Assembly: GCA_027045875.1 (NCBI GenBank)
Contig: JALUAG010000066.1
Coordinates: 1-64,000 of the forward strand
Direction of reading: 5' to 3'
Source of the DNA: Alphaproteobacteria bacterium
GTDB lineage: Bacteria; Pseudomonadota; Alphaproteobacteria; Geminicoccales; Geminicoccaceae
Length of the DNA stretch: 64,000 nucleotides
Positions within the stretch are counted from its first letter, which is position 1; every line of letters starts with the position of its first letter. The position numbers and the translations under genes were made by a program. Under the pieces are notes generated by a model. That model did not search any database. It worked only from the letters and a program-made list of their open reading frames with translations, and had not been told where the DNA came from. Shown here piece after piece: positions 3,000 to 50,396 of the stretch.

Positions 3000-3772
3000 C
3001 CGCGCCCGAAGCCCTCGCCGTCATCCGCCGCCGTCTGGCGCGCGCCGGCCTCCTGCTGCGCGGCGGCTTCCATCCCCGGGCCGACGACGGGGTGCCGCAT
3101 CTCGCGGACGGCCGGCCGACGCGCACCCTGCTGCTGGTCGGCAATGCGGGACGCACCCTCTGGCGCCGTCTCGCGGGATCACCCGAGATGACGCGGCCTC
3201 ACCCGTTCGACGCCTACTGTCGACGGGTCCTGGGCGAGCTCGCCGCTGGGTGCGGCGCGCGGGCCGTGTTCCCGGACGAAGGACCTCCCTGGTATCCCTT
3301 CCAGCGCTGGGCGATGCGGGCGGAGCCCGGCCTTCGCCCCTCGCCGCTGGGCATTCTCCTGCACCCGCGTTTCGGCCCCTGGCACGCCTATCGCGGGGCG
3401 CTGCTGTTCGCCGGGCGGCTGCCGCTCGCTGCGCCCCCGCCCCTCGCCTGGCCCTGCGTGGTCTGTCGGGACCGTCCCTGCCTCACCGCCTGCCCGGCGG
3501 GCGCGGTCACCGCCGAGGGCTACCATGTCGCCCGCTGCCGCGCCCTTCTCGAACGGCTGCCGGACGGCCCCTGCATGCGCGGCGGCTGTCTCGCCCGTCA
3601 CGCCTGTCCGGTCGGCCGTGCCTTCGTCTACGATGCCGCCCAGGCGGCCCATCACATGCGGGCCTTCGTCACTCCGGAGAGGGACAGGGCTCGCCCAGAA
3701 AGCGAACCTGATCGCGGGGATAGCGCTCCGCGTCCACCACGTTGCCCGCCCAACCGGGCTCGACGAGATTGA
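2996..3772 (+). CDS. 4Fe-4S protein with MMACHC/QueG-like N-terminal region
   Basis: 258-aa cytoplasmic protein of unassigned function. Cysteines 154, 157, 162 and 166 form a CxxCx4CxxxCP ferredoxin motif, and 181, 193, 198 and 204 could hold a second cluster; the layout recalls the ferredoxin tail of epoxyqueuosine reductase QueG. The N-terminal half carries HPRFGPWHAYRG at residues 123-134, very like the HPRFGGWFAIRG segment of the human cobalamin chaperone MMACHC (recalled, not searched). QueG and reductive dehalogenases are known relatives of MMACHC, so a cobalamin-linked redox role is plausible but inferred. The start is a GTG overlapping the glycosylase stop by 4 bp (GTGA), so the two are coupled. 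The last ~35 residues are Arg/Pro-rich, unconserved in appearance, and overlap the convergent gene at 3669-5009. Confidence 0.7.
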   Translation: MTAPEALAVIRRRLARAGLLLRGGFHPRADDGVPHLADGRPTRTLLLVGNAGRTLWRRLAGSPEMTRPHPFDAYCRRVLGELAAGCGARAVFPDEGPPWYPFQRWAMRAEPGLRPSPLGILLHPRFGPWHAYRGALLFAGRLPLAAPPPLAWPCVVCRDRPCLTACPAGAVTAEGYHVARCRALLERLPDGPCMRGGCLARHACPVGRAFVYDAAQAAHHMRAFVTPERDRARPESEPDRGDSAPRPPRCPPNRARRD

Positions 3773-5009
3773 CCCATTCCCAGACCACCTCGCCGCTTTC
3801 GGGCTCCACCTCGAACAGCCGTCCGCCGTGGGAATCGACGGCCAGGATGTTGCCATTGGGCAGCGGCGCCTGCTCGCCGCGGGAGCGGTTGTAGAAGGCG
3901 AACTCCCCCTTTCCCTCCCACTCCCAGACGATGCGGCTGCCGACCGGGTCGATCTCGAGCAGCCGCGTGTTGCCGAAGAGCGCCTTCGCGCCGGTGATCC
4001 GGTTGTCGTAGAGGAGAATGTGGCCGTCGGGCAGGAAGTCGGGGTCGTGCTGTCCGAGGAAGGGGCCGGTGGTCGACCATTTGACGAGGCGGGAACGGCC
4101 GTCGAAGACGACGATGGTGTTGATGTTGCGGAACGAGACCATGATGTCCCCGGCCTCGAACAGCGGAAAGGCATCCGCCATCTCGGCGTCCAGCACCTCG
4201 ACCGTGTTGTTGTGGAGGGGATCCTTGACCCGGCTCGCGACGGTGGAACCGGGACCGGAGAACAGAAGATCCTGGCGATCGCTCGCATAGAGCGCGTCGA
4301 TGAGCGACCACTCCTCGAGAATCTCTCCCTCGGGAGACACCCGGATCAGCGTCTCGTCCAGATAGTAGCCCTCGGGACCGGGAAAGAGCCGCGGACGCTC
4401 GGGACGTGTCTCGAAGACCTTCTCCCAGCCGACGATGAGCAGATCACCGTTCGGCAGGAAGTCCATGTCGTGATGGGTATCGCGGGCGATGCTCCAGACC
4501 GGCCGCGAACAACGGTCGAGCTTGACCGTGCCCAGGGCGTAGACGTTGAGGAACACGTCGCCCTCGGGAGTCATCATCGCGCCGTGGATGTTCATGTCGC
4601 GCAGGATGCCCGCCGGGCTTTCCTGGATCCGGTCCGGCCACAGCTCGCGCGGATCCATCGTCCAGCGATGGACGATCTCGCCGTTCATGTCGAGCAGCAG
4701 GGCCTGCGCCATGCCCTCGTAGTTGGCGGTGACGAAGGTGTAGCCGTCGAATGCCCGCTGCCGATCGTAGACGGTCACCCCCCCGGTCCGGCGGGGCGTC
4801 GGCTCCACGTACCTCGAACGGATGCCGAGATAATGGCGCCAGTTTTCCTTCCAGTCCTGTGCGGCGTCCATCGCCATCCTGAGCTGCCGTGCCGGCGGCC
4901 AGTCGTACTTCCCGACACCGATGCCATACACGAACATCACGAGCGCGATCGCCGCGTAGAGCGACAGCCTTTCGATCCGGTCGGCGACCCGTGCCAGTTT
5001 CGTCGCCAT
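3669..5009 (-). CDS. Arylsulfotransferase (ASST) family beta-propeller protein
   Basis: 446-aa protein with an N-terminal membrane anchor (residues ~15-32) and a periplasmic portion. Repeated blade motifs such as HRWTMDPRELWPDR, THHDMDFLPNGDLLIVGWE, LVKWSTTGPFLGQHDPDFLPDGHILLYDN and QAPLPNGNILAVDSHGGRLFEV are typical of the ASST/arylsulfotransferase-like beta-propeller (pfam05935/pfam14269). Classical ASST transfers sulfate between phenols through a histidine and is matured by a dedicated DsbL/DsbI pair. No such partner lies nearby, and the protein has only two cysteines of note (C-SRPVW and the C-terminal CPSPE). Many anchored relatives have no known substrate. The ATG at 5009 follows a GGCGAG-like ribosome-binding site. 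The 3' end overlaps the convergent ferredoxin-like gene by 104 bp. Confidence 0.8.
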   Translation of the reverse strand: MATKLARVADRIERLSLYAAIALVMFVYGIGVGKYDWPPARQLRMAMDAAQDWKENWRHYLGIRSRYVEPTPRRTGGVTVYDRQRAFDGYTFVTANYEGMAQALLLDMNGEIVHRWTMDPRELWPDRIQESPAGILRDMNIHGAMMTPEGDVFLNVYALGTVKLDRCSRPVWSIARDTHHDMDFLPNGDLLIVGWEKVFETRPERPRLFPGPEGYYLDETLIRVSPEGEILEEWSLIDALYASDRQDLLFSGPGSTVASRVKDPLHNNTVEVLDAEMADAFPLFEAGDIMVSFRNINTIVVFDGRSRLVKWSTTGPFLGQHDPDFLPDGHILLYDNRITGAKALFGNTRLLEIDPVGSRIVWEWEGKGEFAFYNRSRGEQAPLPNGNILAVDSHGGRLFEVEPESGEVVWEWVNLVEPGWAGNVVDAERYPRDQVRFLGEPCPSPE

Positions 5010-5177: not shown

Positions 5178-7160
<1,983 letters not shown>

Positions 7161-7248
7161 CGGATCCGACAGTTCGGGCGTTGCCAGGCGATGGCCGATG
7201 CTTACCAGCAGCGTCGCCGCGCAGCCAGCCCGCCGCGACGGGGCGTCC

Positions 7249-7722
7249 TCAACCGGCTACCAGCTTGGCGCCGAACTGGGCCTCGGTGGCCAGCGCACCG
7301 TCGACCGACGCCCGCCCCTCGAAGCGGTAGACCCCGAGCCGGCTGCGCACCAGCTCGACCTCGAGGCGGAGCTGATGGCCGGGCCGGATGGGGCGCCGGA
7401 AGCGGGCGCGGTCCACCGACATGAAATAGACGGGGCTGCCCTCGAGGCCGGCTCCCATGCTGGCGATCACGAGAACGGCCGCCGTCTGGGCCATGGCCTC
7501 GATGACCAGCACCCCCGGCATGATGGGATCGCCCGGAAAATGGCCGCCGAAGAAGGGCTCGTTGATGGTCACGTTCTTGATGCCCACCGCTCGCTCGAAG
7601 GCCCGGATGTCGGTGACGGCGTCGAGCATCAGCATCGGGAAACGGTGCGGGATGATGCGCATCACCTCGTTGACGTCGAGATCGGGCATCGGCGTGCCGG
7701 GCGCCTTCTCTTCGTGCACCAT
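7249..7722 (-). CDS. fabZ: 3-hydroxyacyl-ACP dehydratase FabZ
   Basis: Dehydrates (3R)-hydroxyacyl-ACP in fatty acid elongation; cytoplasmic hot-dog fold. 157 aa. The catalytic signature is present: [11 protein letters not shown] (catalytic His) near residue 25 and [23 protein letters not shown] (catalytic Glu) near residues 57-79. The ATG at 7722 has GAGGAG seven bases upstream. It lies 35 bp after skp. In most Gram-negatives fabZ sits between lpxD and lpxA; here skp precedes it and a pccA-like gene follows it, so both lipid A genes are missing from this locus. It is the last clearly recognisable member of the rpsB-to-fabZ run. Confidence 0.96.
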
Positions 7723-7757
7723 CGATATCTCCTCGTCGCTGCGGGGATCCCCGTGTG

Positions 7758-8354
7758 CTATTCCGTGCCCCCGGCCGCAACCTCGGGCACCTCGACACGC
7801 GGCAGTCGGGCGTCGAGGCCGGACAGCACTTCCTCGGTCAGATCGAGGCGGGGCGAGAACAAGAGCACGGCCGTGCTGGGCAGGACGAGATTGAAGCCCC
7901 GCTCCTCGGCCAGTTCCCCCACCACCTCGATGATGGCGTTGCGGACCTCGGCATAGGCACTGGCCGAGGCGGCGTCGAGCTGGCGCCGCCGTTCCTGCAC
8001 CTGCCGCTGCACGGCCGCGGCCTCCCGCTCGAACTCGCGCCGTTTCCTGGCGAACGCCTCGGGCGAGAGCAGGCTGCGCTGACGGGTGATCTCCCGCTCC
8101 TTCTCCAGCAGCTCCTGCTCCTTTTTCTTGATTTCCTCCTGATAGCGCCGGCGACGGGCCTCGATCTCCTCGCGTATCTGTCGTGCCGCCTTGGCCTCCC
8201 GCAGCAGCCGCTGATAGTTGACCACCGCCACAACCGCGGGCGGAAACGGCTCGGCCGAAAGGTTCCCGCCCCCGGGGGCGGCGGCGCCGAGGGTGAACCC
8301 GCAGGCGGCCGTCAGAACCCCTCCCAGCAGCCGGCGCCGGGCCGGAGAGCGCAC
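7758..8354 (-). CDS. skp: OmpH/Skp family periplasmic chaperone
   Basis: Periplasmic holdase that delivers unfolded outer-membrane proteins to BamA, encoded 13 bp upstream. A signal peptide ([22 protein letters not shown]) is followed by [19 protein letters not shown] and a long charged coiled coil (about residues 50-130; [22 protein letters not shown]), then a C-terminal strand [24 protein letters not shown], the standard OmpH layout. I favour the GTG at 8354 (198 aa) because it opens directly into the signal peptide and avoids overlap with bamA. An ATG at 8417 (219 aa) is the alternative and would overlap bamA by 50 bp. The usual downstream neighbour lpxD is absent. Confidence 0.85.
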
Positions 8355-8367
8355 CCCCGGCGGCCCG

Positions 8368-10650
8368 CTAGAAGCGCGTACCGAAGCTGAGACGGAAGGT
8401 TTCCGTATCGTCTTCATCGTCCTTGACAAGCGCTTGCGCGAAATCGATCGCCAGCGGGCCGAGAGGCGACAGCCAGGAGAGACCGACCCCGGCGCTGACC
8501 CGGATGTTGCCGCTGTCCTCGAGCTGGGAGCCGGAGACATCGATGTCGGTCAGGCTGCCGGCATCGACGAAGGCGCGCCCGAACATGCGCAGCTCCTTGG
8601 GCAGCCCCAGCGGGAAACGGATCTCGGCCGTCCCCACGTAGTAGAGATTGCCGCCGAGGGCATCGTCGGTGTCGGTGTCGCGCGGCCCGATGCCCGCCGC
8701 CGCGAAGCCGCGGAAGCTGGAACCGCCCAGGAAGAAGCGGTCGGACAGATGCACGTCCTCGCCCGCGAAGCCGAAGACGTAACCCGCCGCGCCGCCGAGG
8801 TTGAGCACGACGTCGGGTGCCAGGCTGTAGTAGAAGTCGGCCTTGAGCTCGTGGCGGACGTACTTGCTGTCGCCCAGAAGCCCGGCGATGTCCTGATCGA
8901 GGCGGAGCACGTAGCCCTCGGAAGGCAGGAAGCGGGTGTCGCGCCGGTCGTAGGTGAAGGTCTGGCCGATCGCCGAAGTGAGCCGCTCGCCCTCTTCCTG
9001 CTTGATGAAATCCGAGGCGTCGTTGTCGACGTCGCGGATGTCGCTGTTCTTGAGCGTGTAACGGACGGAATGGCGGAGGTACTCGGTGAGCTCGTAGCTC
9101 GCCCGCAGCCGGCCGCGGGTCACCGTCTCGTCGAAGGAGCTCTCGGTCTGGAAGTCGCTCTGGGTGTGGGCGATATCGATCCCGGCCGCCAGGTCCCGGT
9201 CGAGGAAATAGGGCTCGGTGAAGCTGAACTCGATGCGCTGGCGCCGCTCCGCGACGGTGAAGCTCAAGAGCAGCGCCTGCCCGCGGCCGAGAAGGTTCTC
9301 CTCGGACAGCCGGACGTCGGCCAAGGGGCCGTCGGCGGTCGAGTAGCCGGCGCCGAAGGACAGGGATCCGGTGGATTTCTCGGCCACTTCCACCTCGACG
9401 ATGATGCGGTCCGGCGCGCTTCCCTGGCGGGTCCGCACATCCACCTTCTCGAAGAAATCGAGATTGCGCACGCGCTGGATGGAACGCCGCAGCAGCACGG
9501 TGTTGAAGGGATCGCCTTCGGCCAGCCGGAACTCGCGGCGGATCACCGAATCGAGAGTGCGCACGTTGCCCCTGATGTCGATCCGCTCGACGTAGACCCG
9601 CGGACCCTCGTCGATCCGGTAGGTGACGTCGACGGTGAGATTGTCGCGGTCGATGTCCTGGACCGGCTCGATGCGGGCGAAGGCGTAGCCCAGCTTGCCC
9701 ACCTCGTCGGTCAGCGCCTGGACGGTGGCCTCGATGGCGTCGGCGTCGTAGAGGGTGCCTTCCCGCGTGGTGACGAAGGAGCGCAGCTGCTCGGGCTCCA
9801 GATCGCGCAGCCGACTGTCGATGGCGATCTCGCCGAACCTGTACCGCGGTCCCTCCTCCAGGGTGAAGGTGATGTAGAAGCAGCGCCCGTCGGGGCTGAG
9901 CTCGGCCACCGCCGACAGCACCTTGAATTCGGCATAGCCGCGGGCCTGGTAGAAGCGCCGTAGCAGCTCCTTGTCGAAGTCCACGCGGTCCGGATCGTAG
10001 GTGTCTTCGTTGGTGAAGATGCGGTACCAGGCGCTCTCGACGGTGCGGATGGTGCCGCGCAGGGTGCTGTCGGCGAACTGCGTGTTGCCGATGAAGGTGA
10101 TGCCGCAAACCTTGGTCAGCGGCCCCTCCTCGATCTCGAACACGAGATCGACGCGGTTCTGGTCGAGCTCGATGATCTTGGGCTCGACGGTGACGGCGTA
10201 GCGGCCGTTGCGACGGTAGAGCTCGAGGATCCGCTCGACCGCACTCTGCACCGCGGCCCGCGAGAAGACGGTGCGCGGCCGGAGGCGCACCTCCGCCTCC
10301 AGTTCCTCGTCGCCGATGCGCCTGTTGCCCTCGAAGGCCACGCGGTTGATGATCGGGTTCTCGACCACCCGCACGACCAGCACATCGCCCTGCCGCTCGA
10401 GGCTCACATCGTCGAACAGGCCGGTGGCGAACAGACTGCGCAGGGAGTCGTCGAGCAGAGCGGGATCGAAGGGATCGCCGCGTCGGACCCGAAGGTAGCT
10501 TTCGACCGTCTCGGTCTCCACCCGCTGGTTGCCTTCGACCCGAATGTCCCGGATCACCCCGTCCGCGGGCTGGGCCGTCGCCGGCGTGATCCACAAGAGC
10601 ACCAGCAAAAGGAAAGACAACCACCCCGCGCAGCGTCCCGTCCCAGGCAT
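8368..10650 (-). CDS. bamA: Outer membrane protein assembly factor BamA
   Basis: Essential outer-membrane insertase. 760 aa: a signal peptide (FLLLVLLWITPATA, cleavage near residue 26), five POTRA domains from IRDIRVEGNQRVETETVESYL to about residue 350 (each with a G-x-x-[RV] turn such as VAFEGNRRIGDEEL, ITFIGNTQFADSTL and IDIRGNVRTLDSVI), then a 16-strand barrel. The L6 region has the conserved FFLGGSSFRGFAAAGIGPRD (VRGF-like motif as FRGF), and the chain ends in Phe (LSFGTRF), as outer-membrane barrels do. The ATG at 10650 is preceded by GGGAGG. It sits between rseP and skp in the standard order. Confidence 0.97.
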   Translation of the reverse strand: MPGTGRCAGWLSFLLLVLLWITPATAQPADGVIRDIRVEGNQRVETETVESYLRVRRGDPFDPALLDDSLRSLFATGLFDDVSLERQGDVLVVRVVENPIINRVAFEGNRRIGDEELEAEVRLRPRTVFSRAAVQSAVERILELYRRNGRYAVTVEPKIIELDQNRVDLVFEIEEGPLTKVCGITFIGNTQFADSTLRGTIRTVESAWYRIFTNEDTYDPDRVDFDKELLRRFYQARGYAEFKVLSAVAELSPDGRCFYITFTLEEGPRYRFGEIAIDSRLRDLEPEQLRSFVTTREGTLYDADAIEATVQALTDEVGKLGYAFARIEPVQDIDRDNLTVDVTYRIDEGPRVYVERIDIRGNVRTLDSVIRREFRLAEGDPFNTVLLRRSIQRVRNLDFFEKVDVRTRQGSAPDRIIVEVEVAEKSTGSLSFGAGYSTADGPLADVRLSEENLLGRGQALLLSFTVAERRQRIEFSFTEPYFLDRDLAAGIDIAHTQSDFQTESSFDETVTRGRLRASYELTEYLRHSVRYTLKNSDIRDVDNDASDFIKQEEGERLTSAIGQTFTYDRRDTRFLPSEGYVLRLDQDIAGLLGDSKYVRHELKADFYYSLAPDVVLNLGGAAGYVFGFAGEDVHLSDRFFLGGSSFRGFAAAGIGPRDTDTDDALGGNLYYVGTAEIRFPLGLPKELRMFGRAFVDAGSLTDIDVSGSQLEDSGNIRVSAGVGLSWLSPLGPLAIDFAQALVKDDEDDTETFRLSFGTRF

Positions 10651-10689: not shown

Positions 10690-11811
10690 CTAGGACGACA
10701 CCAGTCGCGTGAAGAAGTCGAAGATCCTCAGGTTGACGAGATCGTTCCAGGTGGCGAACAGCATCAGGCTCAACACCATCGCCAGACCGAGGCGGAATGC
10801 GATCTCCTGGCTGCGTTCCGTCAGGGGGCGGCCGCGAACCGCCTCGATCGTGTAGAGCAGCAGATGGCCGCCGTCCAGCATGGGGATGGGGAACAGGTTG
10901 ATGAGACCGAGGTTGATGGACAGGATCGCCGTGAACCAGAGCGCCGGCAGCAACCCCTGGTTGGCGATCTCGCCCGACATCTGGGCGATCCTGAGCGGCC
11001 CGCCCAGCTCCTGGGTGCCGCGGGAGCCGATCACCATCTCCCACAGGGCGTGTAACGTCCCGCCGATGATCCGGAGCGTCTCGCCGGTGGCCTCCACCGG
11101 CGCCAGCAGCGGGTTCGAGCGTCGGAACTCGATGCCACGGCGACTCACGCCGATCATGCCCACCCGCTGTTCGCCGAACCGGTCCTCGAGCACGCGGAGC
11201 TCGGGGGTGATGGTGATCTCGAGCCGCTGCCCATCGCGGGCGATCGTGAACGCGAGCGGCTCGCCGGGCCGGTCGCGTACGAGCAGCTGGAGCTCCTCGA
11301 AGCTCTCCACCGGCTCGCCATCGACGGCGAGGATGCGATCGCCGGGCCGCAGACCCGCCGCCTCGGCCGGGCTGCCGGGCACCACCTCCCCTACCACCGG
11401 CGGCGTGAACGGGCGGCCGACGAGGCTGAACAGCAGCGCCAGCACGATGATGGCGAACAGGAAATTGGCCATCGGGCCGGCGACCACGATGGCCATCCGC
11501 TGCCAGACGGTCTTCGAGGGAAAGGCGTCCGGATCGAGGGCGGTGACGGCATCGGGACGCGAGCTCGTGGCATCCTCGTCCCCCTTCATCCGCACGTAGC
11601 CGCCGAGCGGGACGATGCTGAACTTCCAGCGGGTGCCGGTGCTGTCGTCCCAGCCGAACAGTTCGGGACCGAAACCGATCGAGAACACCTCGACCCGCAC
11701 ACGGTTGCGCCGCGCCACCCAGTAGTGGCCGAACTCGTGCACGAACACCACGACCGAGAGGATCAGGATGAAGGGGACGATGTAGCTGGTGATCAGGCCG
11801 AGGATGCTCAT
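10690..11811 (-). CDS. rseP: RIP metalloprotease RseP
   Basis: Inner-membrane site-2 zinc protease that cleaves transmembrane substrates such as anti-sigma factors and remnant signal peptides. 373 aa. HEFGH at residues 25-29 (HExxH zinc motif) lies in the first membrane helix, GGYVRMKGDED follows the membrane loop, a single PDZ domain spans about 125-205 (GSPAEAAGLRPGDRILAVDG), and the second zinc ligand lies in NLFPIPMLDGGH, ending at residue 316. E. coli RseP has two PDZ domains; the shorter form seen here is usual in alphaproteobacteria. Its ATG overlaps the dxr stop by 4 bp (ATGA, 11808-11811). Confidence 0.96.
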   Translation of the reverse strand: MSILGLITSYIVPFILILSVVVFVHEFGHYWVARRNRVRVEVFSIGFGPELFGWDDSTGTRWKFSIVPLGGYVRMKGDEDATSSRPDAVTALDPDAFPSKTVWQRMAIVVAGPMANFLFAIIVLALLFSLVGRPFTPPVVGEVVPGSPAEAAGLRPGDRILAVDGEPVESFEELQLLVRDRPGEPLAFTIARDGQRLEITITPELRVLEDRFGEQRVGMIGVSRRGIEFRRSNPLLAPVEATGETLRIIGGTLHALWEMVIGSRGTQELGGPLRIAQMSGEIANQGLLPALWFTAILSINLGLINLFPIPMLDGGHLLLYTIEAVRGRPLTERSQEIAFRLGLAMVLSLMLFATWNDLVNLRIFDFFTRLVSS

Positions 11812-13016
11812 GCGCCGGTTCCGTAGAGCTTGCGGGGGTTGCGGGCCTCACACGCCCGGGCGGTTCGCAGACGCGCCTCGCGATCGACCGCCAGGATCTC
11901 CTCCATACTGTCCGCGGGCATCTCCACCAGCGGAGTGCCCAGCATATCGGCGACGATCCGCGCGATGTCCAGAAAGCCGATGCGGTTTTCGAGGAACGCC
12001 TGCACCGCCACCTCGTTGGCGGCGTTGAGCACCGCCGGTGCGGCGCCGCCCGCCCGCAGCGCCTCGCGGGCGGTGGCGAGGGCCGGAAAGCGGTCGGGGT
12101 CCGGGGGCAGGAACTCGAGCCGGCCGAGGGCCAGCAGATCGAGCCGCCCCACCCCGCAGCGCATGCGCTCCGGCCAGGCCAGGGTGGAGGCGATCGGCAC
12201 CCGCATGTCGGCGGGACCGAGCTGGGCGAGCATCGAGCCATCGCGGTAGAGCACGAGCCCGTGCACCGCCGACTGGGGATGGACCATCACCTCGATCGCC
12301 GGTTCCGGGAGACCGAACAGATGGTGGGCCTCGATCACCTCGAAGCCCTTGTTCATCATGGTGGCGCTGTCGACGCTGATCTTGGCGCCCATGCGCCAGT
12401 TGGGATGAGCCGTCGCCCGTGCCGGGGTGACGGCGGCCATCTCCTCGATGCTGGCGTGCAGGAAGGGGCCGCCGGAGGCGGTCAGGACGATCTTCTCGAC
12501 ATCGGCGGGATCGCCGCCGAGCAGCGCCTGGAAGACGGCGTTGTGCTCCGAATCGACCGGCAGCAGGGTGGCGCCGTGACGGCGGACCTCGGCCATGAAC
12601 AGGGGGCCCGCGGAGACCAGGCACTCCTTGTTGGCCAGCCCCACGATGGCGCCGCGGCGCACCGCGGCCAGGGTCGGCGCGAGACCGGCGGCACCGACGA
12701 TGGCGGCCATCACGAACTCGGCCGGGCGTTCGGCCGCCTCCACGAGGGCCTCCTTTCCGGCCCCGGTCTCGATGCCGCTGCCGGCGAGCGCCTCCCGGAG
12801 CTCGCGGTAGCGGGAGGGATCGGCGATGACCGCGAGGCGCGCCCGGTGCCGGCGGGCGAGCCGGGCGAGTTCGGCCGTGTTGGTGCGGGCGGTCAGGGCC
12901 TCGATCTCGAAACGCCCGGGATGCTCGGCGATCACCGCCAGGGTGGAACGACCGATGGAGCCGGTGGCCCCGAGCACGGTGACTCGGCGTGGCCGGCGCC
13001 CGCGCGCCCCGCTCAC
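11808..13016 (-). CDS. dxr: 1-deoxy-D-xylulose-5-phosphate reductoisomerase
   Basis: Converts DXP to MEP with NADPH, the committing step of non-mevalonate isoprenoid synthesis, and so feeds UppS encoded two genes upstream. 402 aa. The Rossmann motif VTVLGATGSIGRSTL starts near residue 13, ANKECLVSAGPL and the metal-binding DSEHNAVFQAL lie mid-protein, LTASGGPF and HPNWRMGAKISVDSATMMNKGFEVIEA follow, and the C-terminal helical domain is complete. The frame is open further upstream, but GTG 13016 gives the family length and overlaps the cdsA stop as GTGA (13013-13016), so I take it as the start. Confidence 0.95.
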   Translation of the reverse strand: MSGARGRRPRRVTVLGATGSIGRSTLAVIAEHPGRFEIEALTARTNTAELARLARRHRARLAVIADPSRYRELREALAGSGIETGAGKEALVEAAERPAEFVMAAIVGAAGLAPTLAAVRRGAIVGLANKECLVSAGPLFMAEVRRHGATLLPVDSEHNAVFQALLGGDPADVEKIVLTASGGPFLHASIEEMAAVTPARATAHPNWRMGAKISVDSATMMNKGFEVIEAHHLFGLPEPAIEVMVHPQSAVHGLVLYRDGSMLAQLGPADMRVPIASTLAWPERMRCGVGRLDLLALGRLEFLPPDPDRFPALATAREALRAGGAAPAVLNAANEVAVQAFLENRIGFLDIARIVADMLGTPLVEMPADSMEEILAVDREARLRTARACEARNPRKLYGTGA

Positions 13017-13861
13017 GTGCCGCCTCCGGAAAGGCGTGCGAGGGCGACCAGCGCGGCGAAGCAGGGGGCGGCGAAGAGCACCCCGTCGAAGCGGTCGAGC
13101 ACGCCCCCGTGGCCGGGCAGCAGGGTCCCGCTGTCCTTCACGCCGGAACGCCGCTTGAGCCAGGACTCCACGAGATCCCCACCTTGCGCCACCACCGCCA
13201 GCAGCATGGCCACCGGCACCGCCACCAGCGCTCCGGTCACCCCGTCGCCGTGCAGCCACACCGCGATCCCGCCGACGGCTCCCGCCAGCACCACGCCACC
13301 CGCCAGCCCGGACCATGTCTTGCCGGGGCTGATATGGGGCGCGAGCCGCGGTCCGCCCAGCGTGCGGCCGACGAAATAGGCGCCGGTATCGGTGGCCACG
13401 ATGACGAGGAACAGCCACAGCACCAGGAGCGCGCCTTCCGGATGCTCGCGGCGCAGCCACAAAAGCGACGCCAGGGGGACCAGCAGATAGAGGGTGCCGG
13501 CCAGCCAGGCGAGCGGCCGGCGGCCGGCGGCGCCCCCGAGGGCCGCCACCGCCACGGCCAGGGCGAGAACGGCCGTTCCTCCCGTGCGCCAGCCGAAGAT
13601 GTGCAGCGCCGGCAGACCCAGCAGGGCGGCAGCGAGGATGCCGGAGCTGAGCAGCAGCCGCAGACGGCGGTCGGTCTCGAGAAGGCGGGCGAGCTCGCGC
13701 GCCATGGCCGCCGCCATGGCGATCAGAAAGATGGTGTAGACCGGCCCCCCGGCGAGGATCGCCGCCACCACCAGGACCGCCAGCACCGAACCCGTGAGCA
13801 GACGTCGGCGCAGGGCACGGTCGAAGGTGTCAGCCAGCGGACGCCCCATAGCGCCGTTCAC
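13013..13861 (-). CDS. cdsA: Phosphatidate cytidylyltransferase CdsA
   Basis: Makes CDP-diacylglycerol from CTP and phosphatidic acid for phospholipid synthesis; integral membrane enzyme with about eight hydrophobic segments. 282 aa. The family signature is intact near the C-terminus as SWLKRRSGVKDSGTLLPGHGG followed by VLDRFD, and TDTGAYFVGRTLGG with the KTWSG block precedes it. The start is uncertain: GTG 13861 (overlapping uppS by 32 bp) or ATG 13849, four codons later; neither has a strong ribosome-binding site. It is translated between uppS and dxr. Confidence 0.95.
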   Translation of the reverse strand: MNGAMGRPLADTFDRALRRRLLTGSVLAVLVVAAILAGGPVYTIFLIAMAAAMARELARLLETDRRLRLLLSSGILAAALLGLPALHIFGWRTGGTAVLALAVAVAALGGAAGRRPLAWLAGTLYLLVPLASLLWLRREHPEGALLVLWLFLVIVATDTGAYFVGRTLGGPRLAPHISPGKTWSGLAGGVVLAGAVGGIAVWLHGDGVTGALVAVPVAMLLAVVAQGGDLVESWLKRRSGVKDSGTLLPGHGGVLDRFDGVLFAAPCFAALVALARLSGGGT

Positions 13862-14570
13862 GCCGTCCGAACTCGGCGATGGCCTCGAACAGGTGGCATT
13901 CCTCGAATTCCGGCCAGGTCACGGGCACGAACACGAGCTCGGTGTAGGCGAGCTGCCAGAGGAGGAAATTGCTGATGCGCTGTTCGCCGCTGGTGCGAAT
14001 GAGCAGATCGGGATCCGGAATGTCGGCGGTGAACAGGGCGGCGGCGACGTCGCGCTCCTCGATCGTTTCGGGGCACAGCTCGCCGCGGGCGGCCCTGGCC
14101 GCCAGCCGGCGCACGGCGAGGAGGATCTCCCGGCGGCCGCCGTAGTTGAGGGCGACCACCAGATCCATGCGGCGGTTGCCGGCGGTGCGCCGCTCGGCAT
14201 GCGCGATGAGCTCGACGATGTCCTCGGCGAGGCCGGTCCGCTCGCCGATGACCCGCACCCGGATGCCGTTGCGGTCGAGACTGTCGATCTCCCGCCGGAG
14301 ATAGTAGCGCAGCAGGTTCATGAGTTCCCCCACCTCCTGGCGGGGGCGGCGCCAGTTCTCCGAGGAGAAGGCGTAGAGGGTGAGATAGCGGACACCGAGC
14401 CGGGCGCAGGCCTCGACCGTCCGCCGTACCGTCTCGGCACCGCGACGGTGGCCGTAGATGGCCGGCTTGCCGTGGGCCCGCGCCCAGCGGCGGTTGCCGT
14501 CCATGATGATGGCGATGTGGACCGGCAGCCCGGACTCGAAGCCGGCGGCGGGAGCTGGGCGCACGTTCAA
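13830..14570 (-). CDS. uppS: Isoprenyl transferase (undecaprenyl diphosphate synthase)
   Basis: Cis-prenyltransferase that extends FPP with IPP to the C55 lipid carrier for peptidoglycan and other polymers. 246 aa. The catalytic HIAIIMDGNRRWAR has Asp at residue 24, followed by LYAFSSENWRRP, the basic NYGGRREI block, and the C-terminal DLLIRTSGEQRISNFLLWQLAYTELVF. The best start is TTG 14570: no ATG is available, and a GAGGAG lies nine bases upstream, overlapping the frr stop. GTG 14564 is a weaker alternative. It is 13 bp downstream of frr. Confidence 0.95.
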   Translation of the reverse strand: MNVRPAPAAGFESGLPVHIAIIMDGNRRWARAHGKPAIYGHRRGAETVRRTVEACARLGVRYLTLYAFSSENWRRPRQEVGELMNLLRYYLRREIDSLDRNGIRVRVIGERTGLAEDIVELIAHAERRTAGNRRMDLVVALNYGGRREILLAVRRLAARAARGELCPETIEERDVAAALFTADIPDPDLLIRTSGEQRISNFLLWQLAYTELVFVPVTWPEFEECHLFEAIAEFGRRERRYGASAG

Positions 14571-49640: not shown

Positions 49641-50396
49641 ATGCGAAGCGGCGCGAGACGGATTGGCGTGACGGTCGTGCTGGCCCTGTTCCTGGCCGGC
49701 TGTGCCGCGGTGACCACCTCCATCGAGAAGCGTGATCTCGATGTCCAGGTGAAGATGAGCGACACCATCTTCCTCGACCCCCTGCCGCCGCAGGCGCGCA
49801 CCGTCTACGTCGAGGTCCGCAACAGCTCGGACCGACCCGATTTCGAGCTCGCCGCCGCCGTGCGCCAGAGCCTCGCCGCCCGCGGATTCCGGGTGGTGGA
49901 GGATCCCGACGCCGCCAACATCATCCTGCAGGCGAACGTGCTGCAGGTGGGTCGCAGCGCCCAGTCGGCGGCCGACGAGGCGCTCGCCGGCGGTTTCGGC
50001 AGCGCCATCGAAGGCGCCGTGATCGGCGGCGCGGTCGGCTACGGCCTCGGCAAGGCCGGTGGCCACGACGCACTGCTGACGATCGGCGGCGCCATCGCCG
50101 GCGCCGCCGTCTCCACCGTCGCCAACGCCGCGGTGCAGAACGTCACCTACACGGTGATCACCGACGTGCAGATTTCGGAGCGGGTGCGCGACGGCGAGCT
50201 CGTGAGCCAGAGCGAGACCCAGAACATCCCTCAGGGCAGCGCCGGGACCGTTACCCAGTCGCGCAGCACGACCACCGAATGGCGGCGTTACCGGACCCGC
50301 ATCGTCGGGACCGCCAACAAGGCCAACCTCACCTACGAGGAGGCGGCACCCGTGCTGGTGGAGCGGCTCACCCAGGTCATGTCCAACATGCTCTGA
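49641..50396 (+). CDS. traT: TraT-family complement-resistance lipoprotein
   Basis: 251-aa outer-membrane lipoprotein with a lipobox LAGC near residue 19. It aligns through its length with F-plasmid TraT as I recall it: the start CAAVTTSIEKRDLDVQVKMSDTIFLDP, the middle IILQANVLQVGR, a glycine-zipper (GAVIGGAVGYGLGKAGG; GAIAGAAVSTVANAAV), VTYTVITDVQISERV, and the end RTRIVGTANKANLTYEEAAPVLVERL. On F, TraT mediates surface exclusion and serum resistance. No conjugation genes are nearby, so this is a chromosomal homologue with an unknown role. ATG 49641 is preceded by GGGGAGAG. Confidence 0.9.
   Translation: MRSGARRIGVTVVLALFLAGCAAVTTSIEKRDLDVQVKMSDTIFLDPLPPQARTVYVEVRNSSDRPDFELAAAVRQSLAARGFRVVEDPDAANIILQANVLQVGRSAQSAADEALAGGFGSAIEGAVIGGAVGYGLGKAGGHDALLTIGGAIAGAAVSTVANAAVQNVTYTVITDVQISERVRDGELVSQSETQNIPQGSAGTVTQSRSTTTEWRRYRTRIVGTANKANLTYEEAAPVLVERLTQVMSNML

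Follow-up and report, generated by a model that had tools for sequence, protein, structure and literature searches.

Lipid A gene loss and a ceramide-type gene cluster with its own Lpt permease genes in the Geminicoccaceae

Does an alphaproteobacterium with a complete outer-membrane assembly operon but no lipid A genes within it still make lipopolysaccharide (LPS), and if not, which lipid could take its place? The question arises from contig C66 of a genome of the family Geminicoccaceae (G000; 3.53 Mb, 110 contigs, 99.93% complete), of which a stretch of 64,000 nucleotides, hereafter the window, was analyzed. The minus strand of the window carries the genes rpsB-tsf-pyrH-frr-uppS-cdsA-dxr-rseP-bamA-skp-fabZ in the order usual for alphaproteobacteria. 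The relevant part of this operon comprises the following features:

5178-7160, minus strand: alpha subunit of a propionyl-CoA-type acyl-CoA carboxylase, biotin carboxylase with BT domain (PF00289, PF02786, PF02785, PF18140, PF00364)
7161-7248, minus strand: junction after fabZ, 88 bp, site of the missing lpxA-lpxI-lpxB, judging by the order in LPS-positive relatives
7249-7722, minus strand: fabZ, 3-hydroxyacyl-ACP dehydratase (TIGR01750, 171.6 bits, cut-off 155)
7723-7757, minus strand: skp-fabZ junction, 35 bp, site of the missing lpxD (absent from G000, present after skp in relatives)
7758-8354, minus strand: skp/OmpH-like periplasmic chaperone (PF03938, 84.7 bits; start chosen by codon usage)
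8368-10608, minus strand: bamA, outer-membrane protein assembly factor (TIGR03303, 789 bits; PF01103 and five POTRA stretches)
10690-11811, minus strand: rseP (PF02163 and PDZ)
11808-13016, minus strand: dxr (homology, and order as in the operon of Geminicoccus roseus)
13013-13861, minus strand: cdsA (PF01148)
13830-14570, minus strand: uppS (homology, and order as in the operon of Geminicoccus roseus)

In Geminicoccus roseus (G005), the counterpart operon reads skp-lpxD-fabZ-lpxA-lpxI-lpxB, and lpxD directly follows skp also in G002, G004, G011, G012, G013, and G027. The window leaves only 35 bp between skp and fabZ and 88 bp between fabZ and the carboxylase gene, so that lpxD and lpxA-lpxI-lpxB are cleanly missing, with no space for a remnant gene. 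Thus, the domain searches and coordinates bear out what the initial annotation had read from this region, namely, the standard order of bamA, skp, and fabZ, the absence of lpxD and lpxA from the window, and a pccA-like gene after fabZ, which encodes a carboxylase with the propionyl-CoA carboxylase BT domain PF18140. The proteins that it had listed as signs of an outer membrane (FabI, SecD, SecF, YajC, an NlpD-like LysM/M23 protein, TraT, and BamA) are all present in the window as well. G017 and G010 likewise have the carboxylase gene immediately after fabZ. Several LPS-less species of the family have two divergent genes after fabZ (encoding about 435 and 475 amino acids), and genes of the same lengths follow lpxB in the LPS-positive G002, which is consistent with simple excision. 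Two further genes of the window deserve mention. An arylsulfotransferase (ASST)-like protein is encoded directly after the carboxylase gene (3669-5009, minus strand), likewise in G017, and a TraT-family protein (49668-50396, plus strand; PF05818, 243.7 bits) is encoded on the chromosome; this family is best known from conjugative plasmids.

The lipid A genes are gone from G000 rather than relocated. Searches of the whole genome returned no match for LpxC (PF03331; the positive controls from E. coli and Caulobacter were matched, and the congeners also lack a match), for LpxD, LpxA, and LpxB (joined query built from the G. roseus proteins), or for KdtA (PF04413). The genome-wide loss that had previously been only surmised is therefore confirmed for these five proteins, and the other option raised at the time, that the genes had moved elsewhere, fails. 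It could still be argued that the genes moved and diverged too far for detection, or fall outside the assembly, given that G000 consists of 110 contigs and that some diverged LpxC proteins are known in relatives. We consider this very improbable: five pathway steps are jointly undetected both in the nearly complete G000 and in its congener G017 (listed as 100% complete), the same queries succeed in eight relatives, and the junctions within the operon are clean. A gene for a KdsD/KpsF-like arabinose-5-phosphate isomerase is found beside lptA in G000 (contig C52, locus L208, 9604-10674) despite the loss of KdtA; because this isomerase is kept, Kdo may still be made for some other use or polymer.

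The pattern extends across the family. Among 31 species of Geminicoccaceae, 3 of which belong to the genus of the window, lpxD, lpxA, lpxB, and kdtA occur jointly in exactly 8 (G002, G004, G005, G011, G012, G013, G018, and G027) and are all absent from the remaining 23, including the entire genus of the window. A search with the Sphingomonas serine palmitoyltransferase (SPT; 2JG2) identified an SPT with about 50% identity to the query in all 23 LPS-less species and in two LPS-positive ones, G013 and G018, which accordingly possess both systems; SPT was undetected with this query in six species, each of which carries the lpx set. No species among the 31 lacks both lipid systems (Fisher p = 4e-5 for the association of SPT with LPS genes, uncorrected for kinship). 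The two states can be close neighbors: G013 and G014 belong to the same genus and differ in LPS genes.

Sphingolipids had been named in the initial annotation as a possible substitute for LPS, and SPT is indeed encoded in G000 (C109:30997-32154; 53% identity to 2JG2; NF047599, 621 bits, cut-off 500), inside a ceramide-type cluster (contig C109, locus L089). SPT is followed in this cluster by an acyl carrier protein, a CerR candidate of the NAD-epimerase family, and a fatty acyl-AMP ligase; the aasR, cerR, acpR, and spt candidates are consecutive at 9456-13706 of L089, as in the Caulobacter-type cluster. The opposing genes encode a fatty acid hydroxylase, a candidate ceramide synthase of 379 aa, a MobA-like nucleotidyltransferase, and a metallophosphoesterase, as well as LptF and LptG, a DAGK-type lipid kinase, and a protein of 301 aa. 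The kinase contains the DAGK_cat domain (PF00781) and is a candidate ceramide kinase. Neither the candidate ceramide synthase nor the 301-aa protein has a match in Pfam or NCBIfam, and both are designated solely by their position; the former is conserved in the cluster, and a PDB search returned no meaningful relative for it. This gene set is divided between two separate loci in G001, G003, G009, G010, and some other relatives. Because the cluster includes a lipid kinase and no recognized glycosyltransferase, the sphingolipid probably bears an anionic, phosphate-linked head group and is likelier to be a phosphosphingolipid than a glycosphingolipid. The earlier proposal of another glycolipid, such as sphingolipids, in place of LPS is thus supported at the gene level as regards a sphingolipid, with a sugar head group being the less likely form.

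The type of LptF and LptG genes varies with the lipid genes. LptF and LptG (PF03739) are encoded in all 31 species. The LPS-less species possess only the pair of the sphingolipid cluster type; 18 were assigned by gene context, and G019, G020, G021, G023, and G025 were scored as this type because SPT and LptFG share a contig in these genomes and are no more than a few kb apart. The canonical pair is located between pepA and lptD in five SPT-less species (G002, G005, G012, and G027 by context, G004 by an adjacent LptD match), G018 carries both pairs, and G013 (87% complete) encodes LpxD, LpxA, LpxB, KdtA, a partial LpxC, and SPT, yet the only LptFG found in it is of the sphingolipid type. Where the canonical pair would be expected from this arrangement, pepA adjoins lptD with no recognized gene in between in G000, G001, G003, G015, and G026. 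In the LptF tree as well as in the LptG tree, the canonical and cluster types are separated with 100% support. The grouping of G026 with G018 among the cluster copies matches the species tree and points to vertical descent from an ancestor that had both pairs.

The rest of the machinery is partly retained. G000 keeps LptD, split across two overlapping contig ends, and LptA, beside LptB. Matches to LptC (PF06835) were confined to G026 and six LPS-positive species; there was no match in 22 of the 23 LPS-less genomes, including anywhere in G000, where the gap between kdsD and lptA is 119 bp, compared with a full lptC at this place in G. roseus. Since the PF06835 model also misses the LPS-positive G013 and G018, LptC is less securely absent than the canonical LptFG, and a diverged LptC may be present. 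A 356-aa gene before lptA in G000 was considered as a potential lptC and rejected as KdsD/KpsF-like.

Some of the LPS-less species retain a relic of the lost pathway. Classification by LpxC alone would give 14 LPS-positive genomes and was rejected, as 6 of these carry an orphan LpxC without lpxD, lpxA, lpxB, or kdtA (G003, G014, G015, G028, G029, and G030; loci L210-L215). In the five with readable surroundings (all except G028), the lpxC-like gene occupies its native site after ftsA-ftsZ. Alignment with canonical sequences indicates that G014 retains both the zinc ligands and the catalytic histidine, that these residues are partly changed in G003, that G015 has damage at the positions that we take to correspond to His79, His238, and Asp242 in the E. 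coli enzyme, and that the Asp242 position is damaged in G028, G029, and G030. The reading frames are open, although active-site residues are changed in five of the six; hence, either decay set in recently or the protein serves some other purpose.

A single origin of the LPS-less state is rejected by the tree of operon proteins (AU p = 2e-43 for one LPS-less clade). The same test does not reject a more limited LPS-less clade, of 13 species (p = 0.098), and for this reason we put the number of lipid A losses, under a model that allows loss only, at four or more (one each in G026, G014, and G015, and at least one among the others). The tree provides 3-4 independent LPS contrasts, so that the family by itself is too small for statistical proof of the coupling between LPS and SPT. 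A broader sample consisted of 289 alphaproteobacterial genomes that were at least 90% complete, of which 39 were scored as lacking KdtA (19 of these through absence from the listed matches). SPT was found in 26 of these 39 compared with 17 of the 250 KdtA-bearing genomes (p = 2e-16, uncorrected for kinship). Most of the listed genomes that lack both KdtA and SPT have a small size of 0.7-1.8 Mb, in line with a host-bound life. One genome of 3.1 Mb (G054) has neither KdtA nor, at an E value of 1e-90, SPT, and is accounted for neither by host-bound reduction nor by a sphingolipid. Three other families (f24, f66, and f79) each include KdtA-bearing species along with KdtA-less, SPT-bearing ones, and so the lipid swap seems to have been repeated outside the Geminicoccaceae.

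The explanation that we favor, with a probability of about 0.8, is that G000 has a real outer membrane devoid of lipid A, in which a ceramide-based sphingolipid exported by the retained Lpt machine substitutes for LPS, and that its ancestor had both lipids. From the genes described above, we infer what lipid is made, which head group it bears, how it is transported, and that it resides in the outer leaflet. Under this scenario, SPT, the acyl carrier protein, the CerR-like reductase, the fatty acyl-AMP ligase, and the candidate ceramide synthase would produce ceramide, to which the lipid kinase and the neighboring nucleotidyltransferase-like and phosphoesterase proteins would add an anionic head group; the LptF and LptG of the cluster, together with the general LptB ATPase, would extract the sphingolipid, and LptA and LptD would deliver it to the outer leaflet. 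The family would go back to an ancestor with both lipids and two LptFG pairs; some descendants would have dropped lpx, kdtA, and the canonical LptFG (mostly along with LptC), and others the sphingolipid cluster with its LptFG. At about even odds, we would add that the LptB-LptA-LptD bridge is loaded by the dedicated LptFG without a canonical LptC, that, given the proposed ancestor with both systems, there were at least four losses of lipid A and about three of sphingolipids, and that LpxC is the last enzyme to decay.

Two other accounts accept the loss of lipid A and differ in the role of the sphingolipid. The outer leaflet might consist of plain phospholipid, as in LPS-deficient Acinetobacter, with the sphingolipid a minor component unrelated to the loss of LPS. 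Co-occurrence of genes proves neither the placement nor the amount of a lipid, and the independent events are few; however, a phospholipid-only outer membrane should not need LptA, LptB, LptD, and one LptFG pair, all of which are kept, no genome in the family lacks both lipid systems, and SPT is strongly enriched in the KdtA-less members of the class, all of which makes this account improbable. Even less probable, in our assessment, is the export of another glycolipid or a polysaccharide-linked lipid by the retained LptD, LptA, and LptFG, with a different role for the sphingolipid. The retained KdsD/KpsF-like isomerase would fit such a cargo, and the head group of the sphingolipid is itself only a prediction, but the only remaining LptFG genes sit among the ceramide genes, and the two are absent together from the SPT-less species.

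Replacement of LPS by sphingolipids is already known; what appears to be new is the reciprocal losses, the swap of the Lpt permease, and the relic LpxCs. We found no prior report, in the open-licence literature, of a family with LPS-only, double, and sphingolipid-only species, of such a permease swap, or of a relic lpxC; one may exist elsewhere. The route of sphingolipids to the bacterial outer membrane has been stated to be unknown (PMC11324152), and why some species tolerate the loss of lipid A has been termed an open question (PMC10964400). The Geminicoccaceae amount to a natural experiment on swapping the outer-membrane lipid, with cultured strains (Geminicoccus) available for comparison, and the finding that, within one family, the canonical LptFG disappear along with lipid A while LptA and LptD persist points to a specific sphingolipid route. 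The findings also suggest that Alphaproteobacteria with genomes of ordinary size lack LPS more widely than one would conclude from the Sphingomonadales alone.

Among the Alphaproteobacteria known to lack LPS, the Anaplasmataceae (Wolbachia and relatives), which have no Kdo2-lipid A genes (PMC3087551), are obligate intracellular bacteria, unlike G000 with its 3.5 Mb genome and retained BamA, LptA, and LptD. Rhodothalassium salexigens, a member of a different order and in part a further case of sphingolipid in place of LPS, is reported to have an outer membrane without LPS, dihydroceramides, and an SPT gene (PMC11762602). The closest resemblance in lipid content is to Sphingomonas and Zymomonas (Sphingomonadales), which have no LPS and in which sphingolipids are essential and substitute for it (PMC11324152, PMC10964400); G000 likewise combines the lack of the lipid A genes searched for with a bacterial SPT. 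The sphingolipid genes of Sphingomonadales are reported to be scattered over the genome, whereas those of the Geminicoccaceae form one or two clusters, and, in contrast to the Sphingomonadales, this single family comprises LPS-positive and LPS-less species together with mixed ones. In gene organization, the counterpart is Caulobacter crescentus, in which the phosphosphingolipid region CC_1152-CC_1168 includes LptC2 along with a second LptF (LptF2, CC_1156) and a second LptG (LptG2, CC_1155), for which sphingolipid transport has only been proposed (PMC11324152). As in G000, ceramide genes, a (candidate) ceramide kinase gene, and the second LptF and LptG lie together in one region. Caulobacter, however, keeps LPS and both permease sets, whereas the LPS-less Geminicoccaceae are without the canonical pair, so that, in these bacteria, the second pair is isolated for study.
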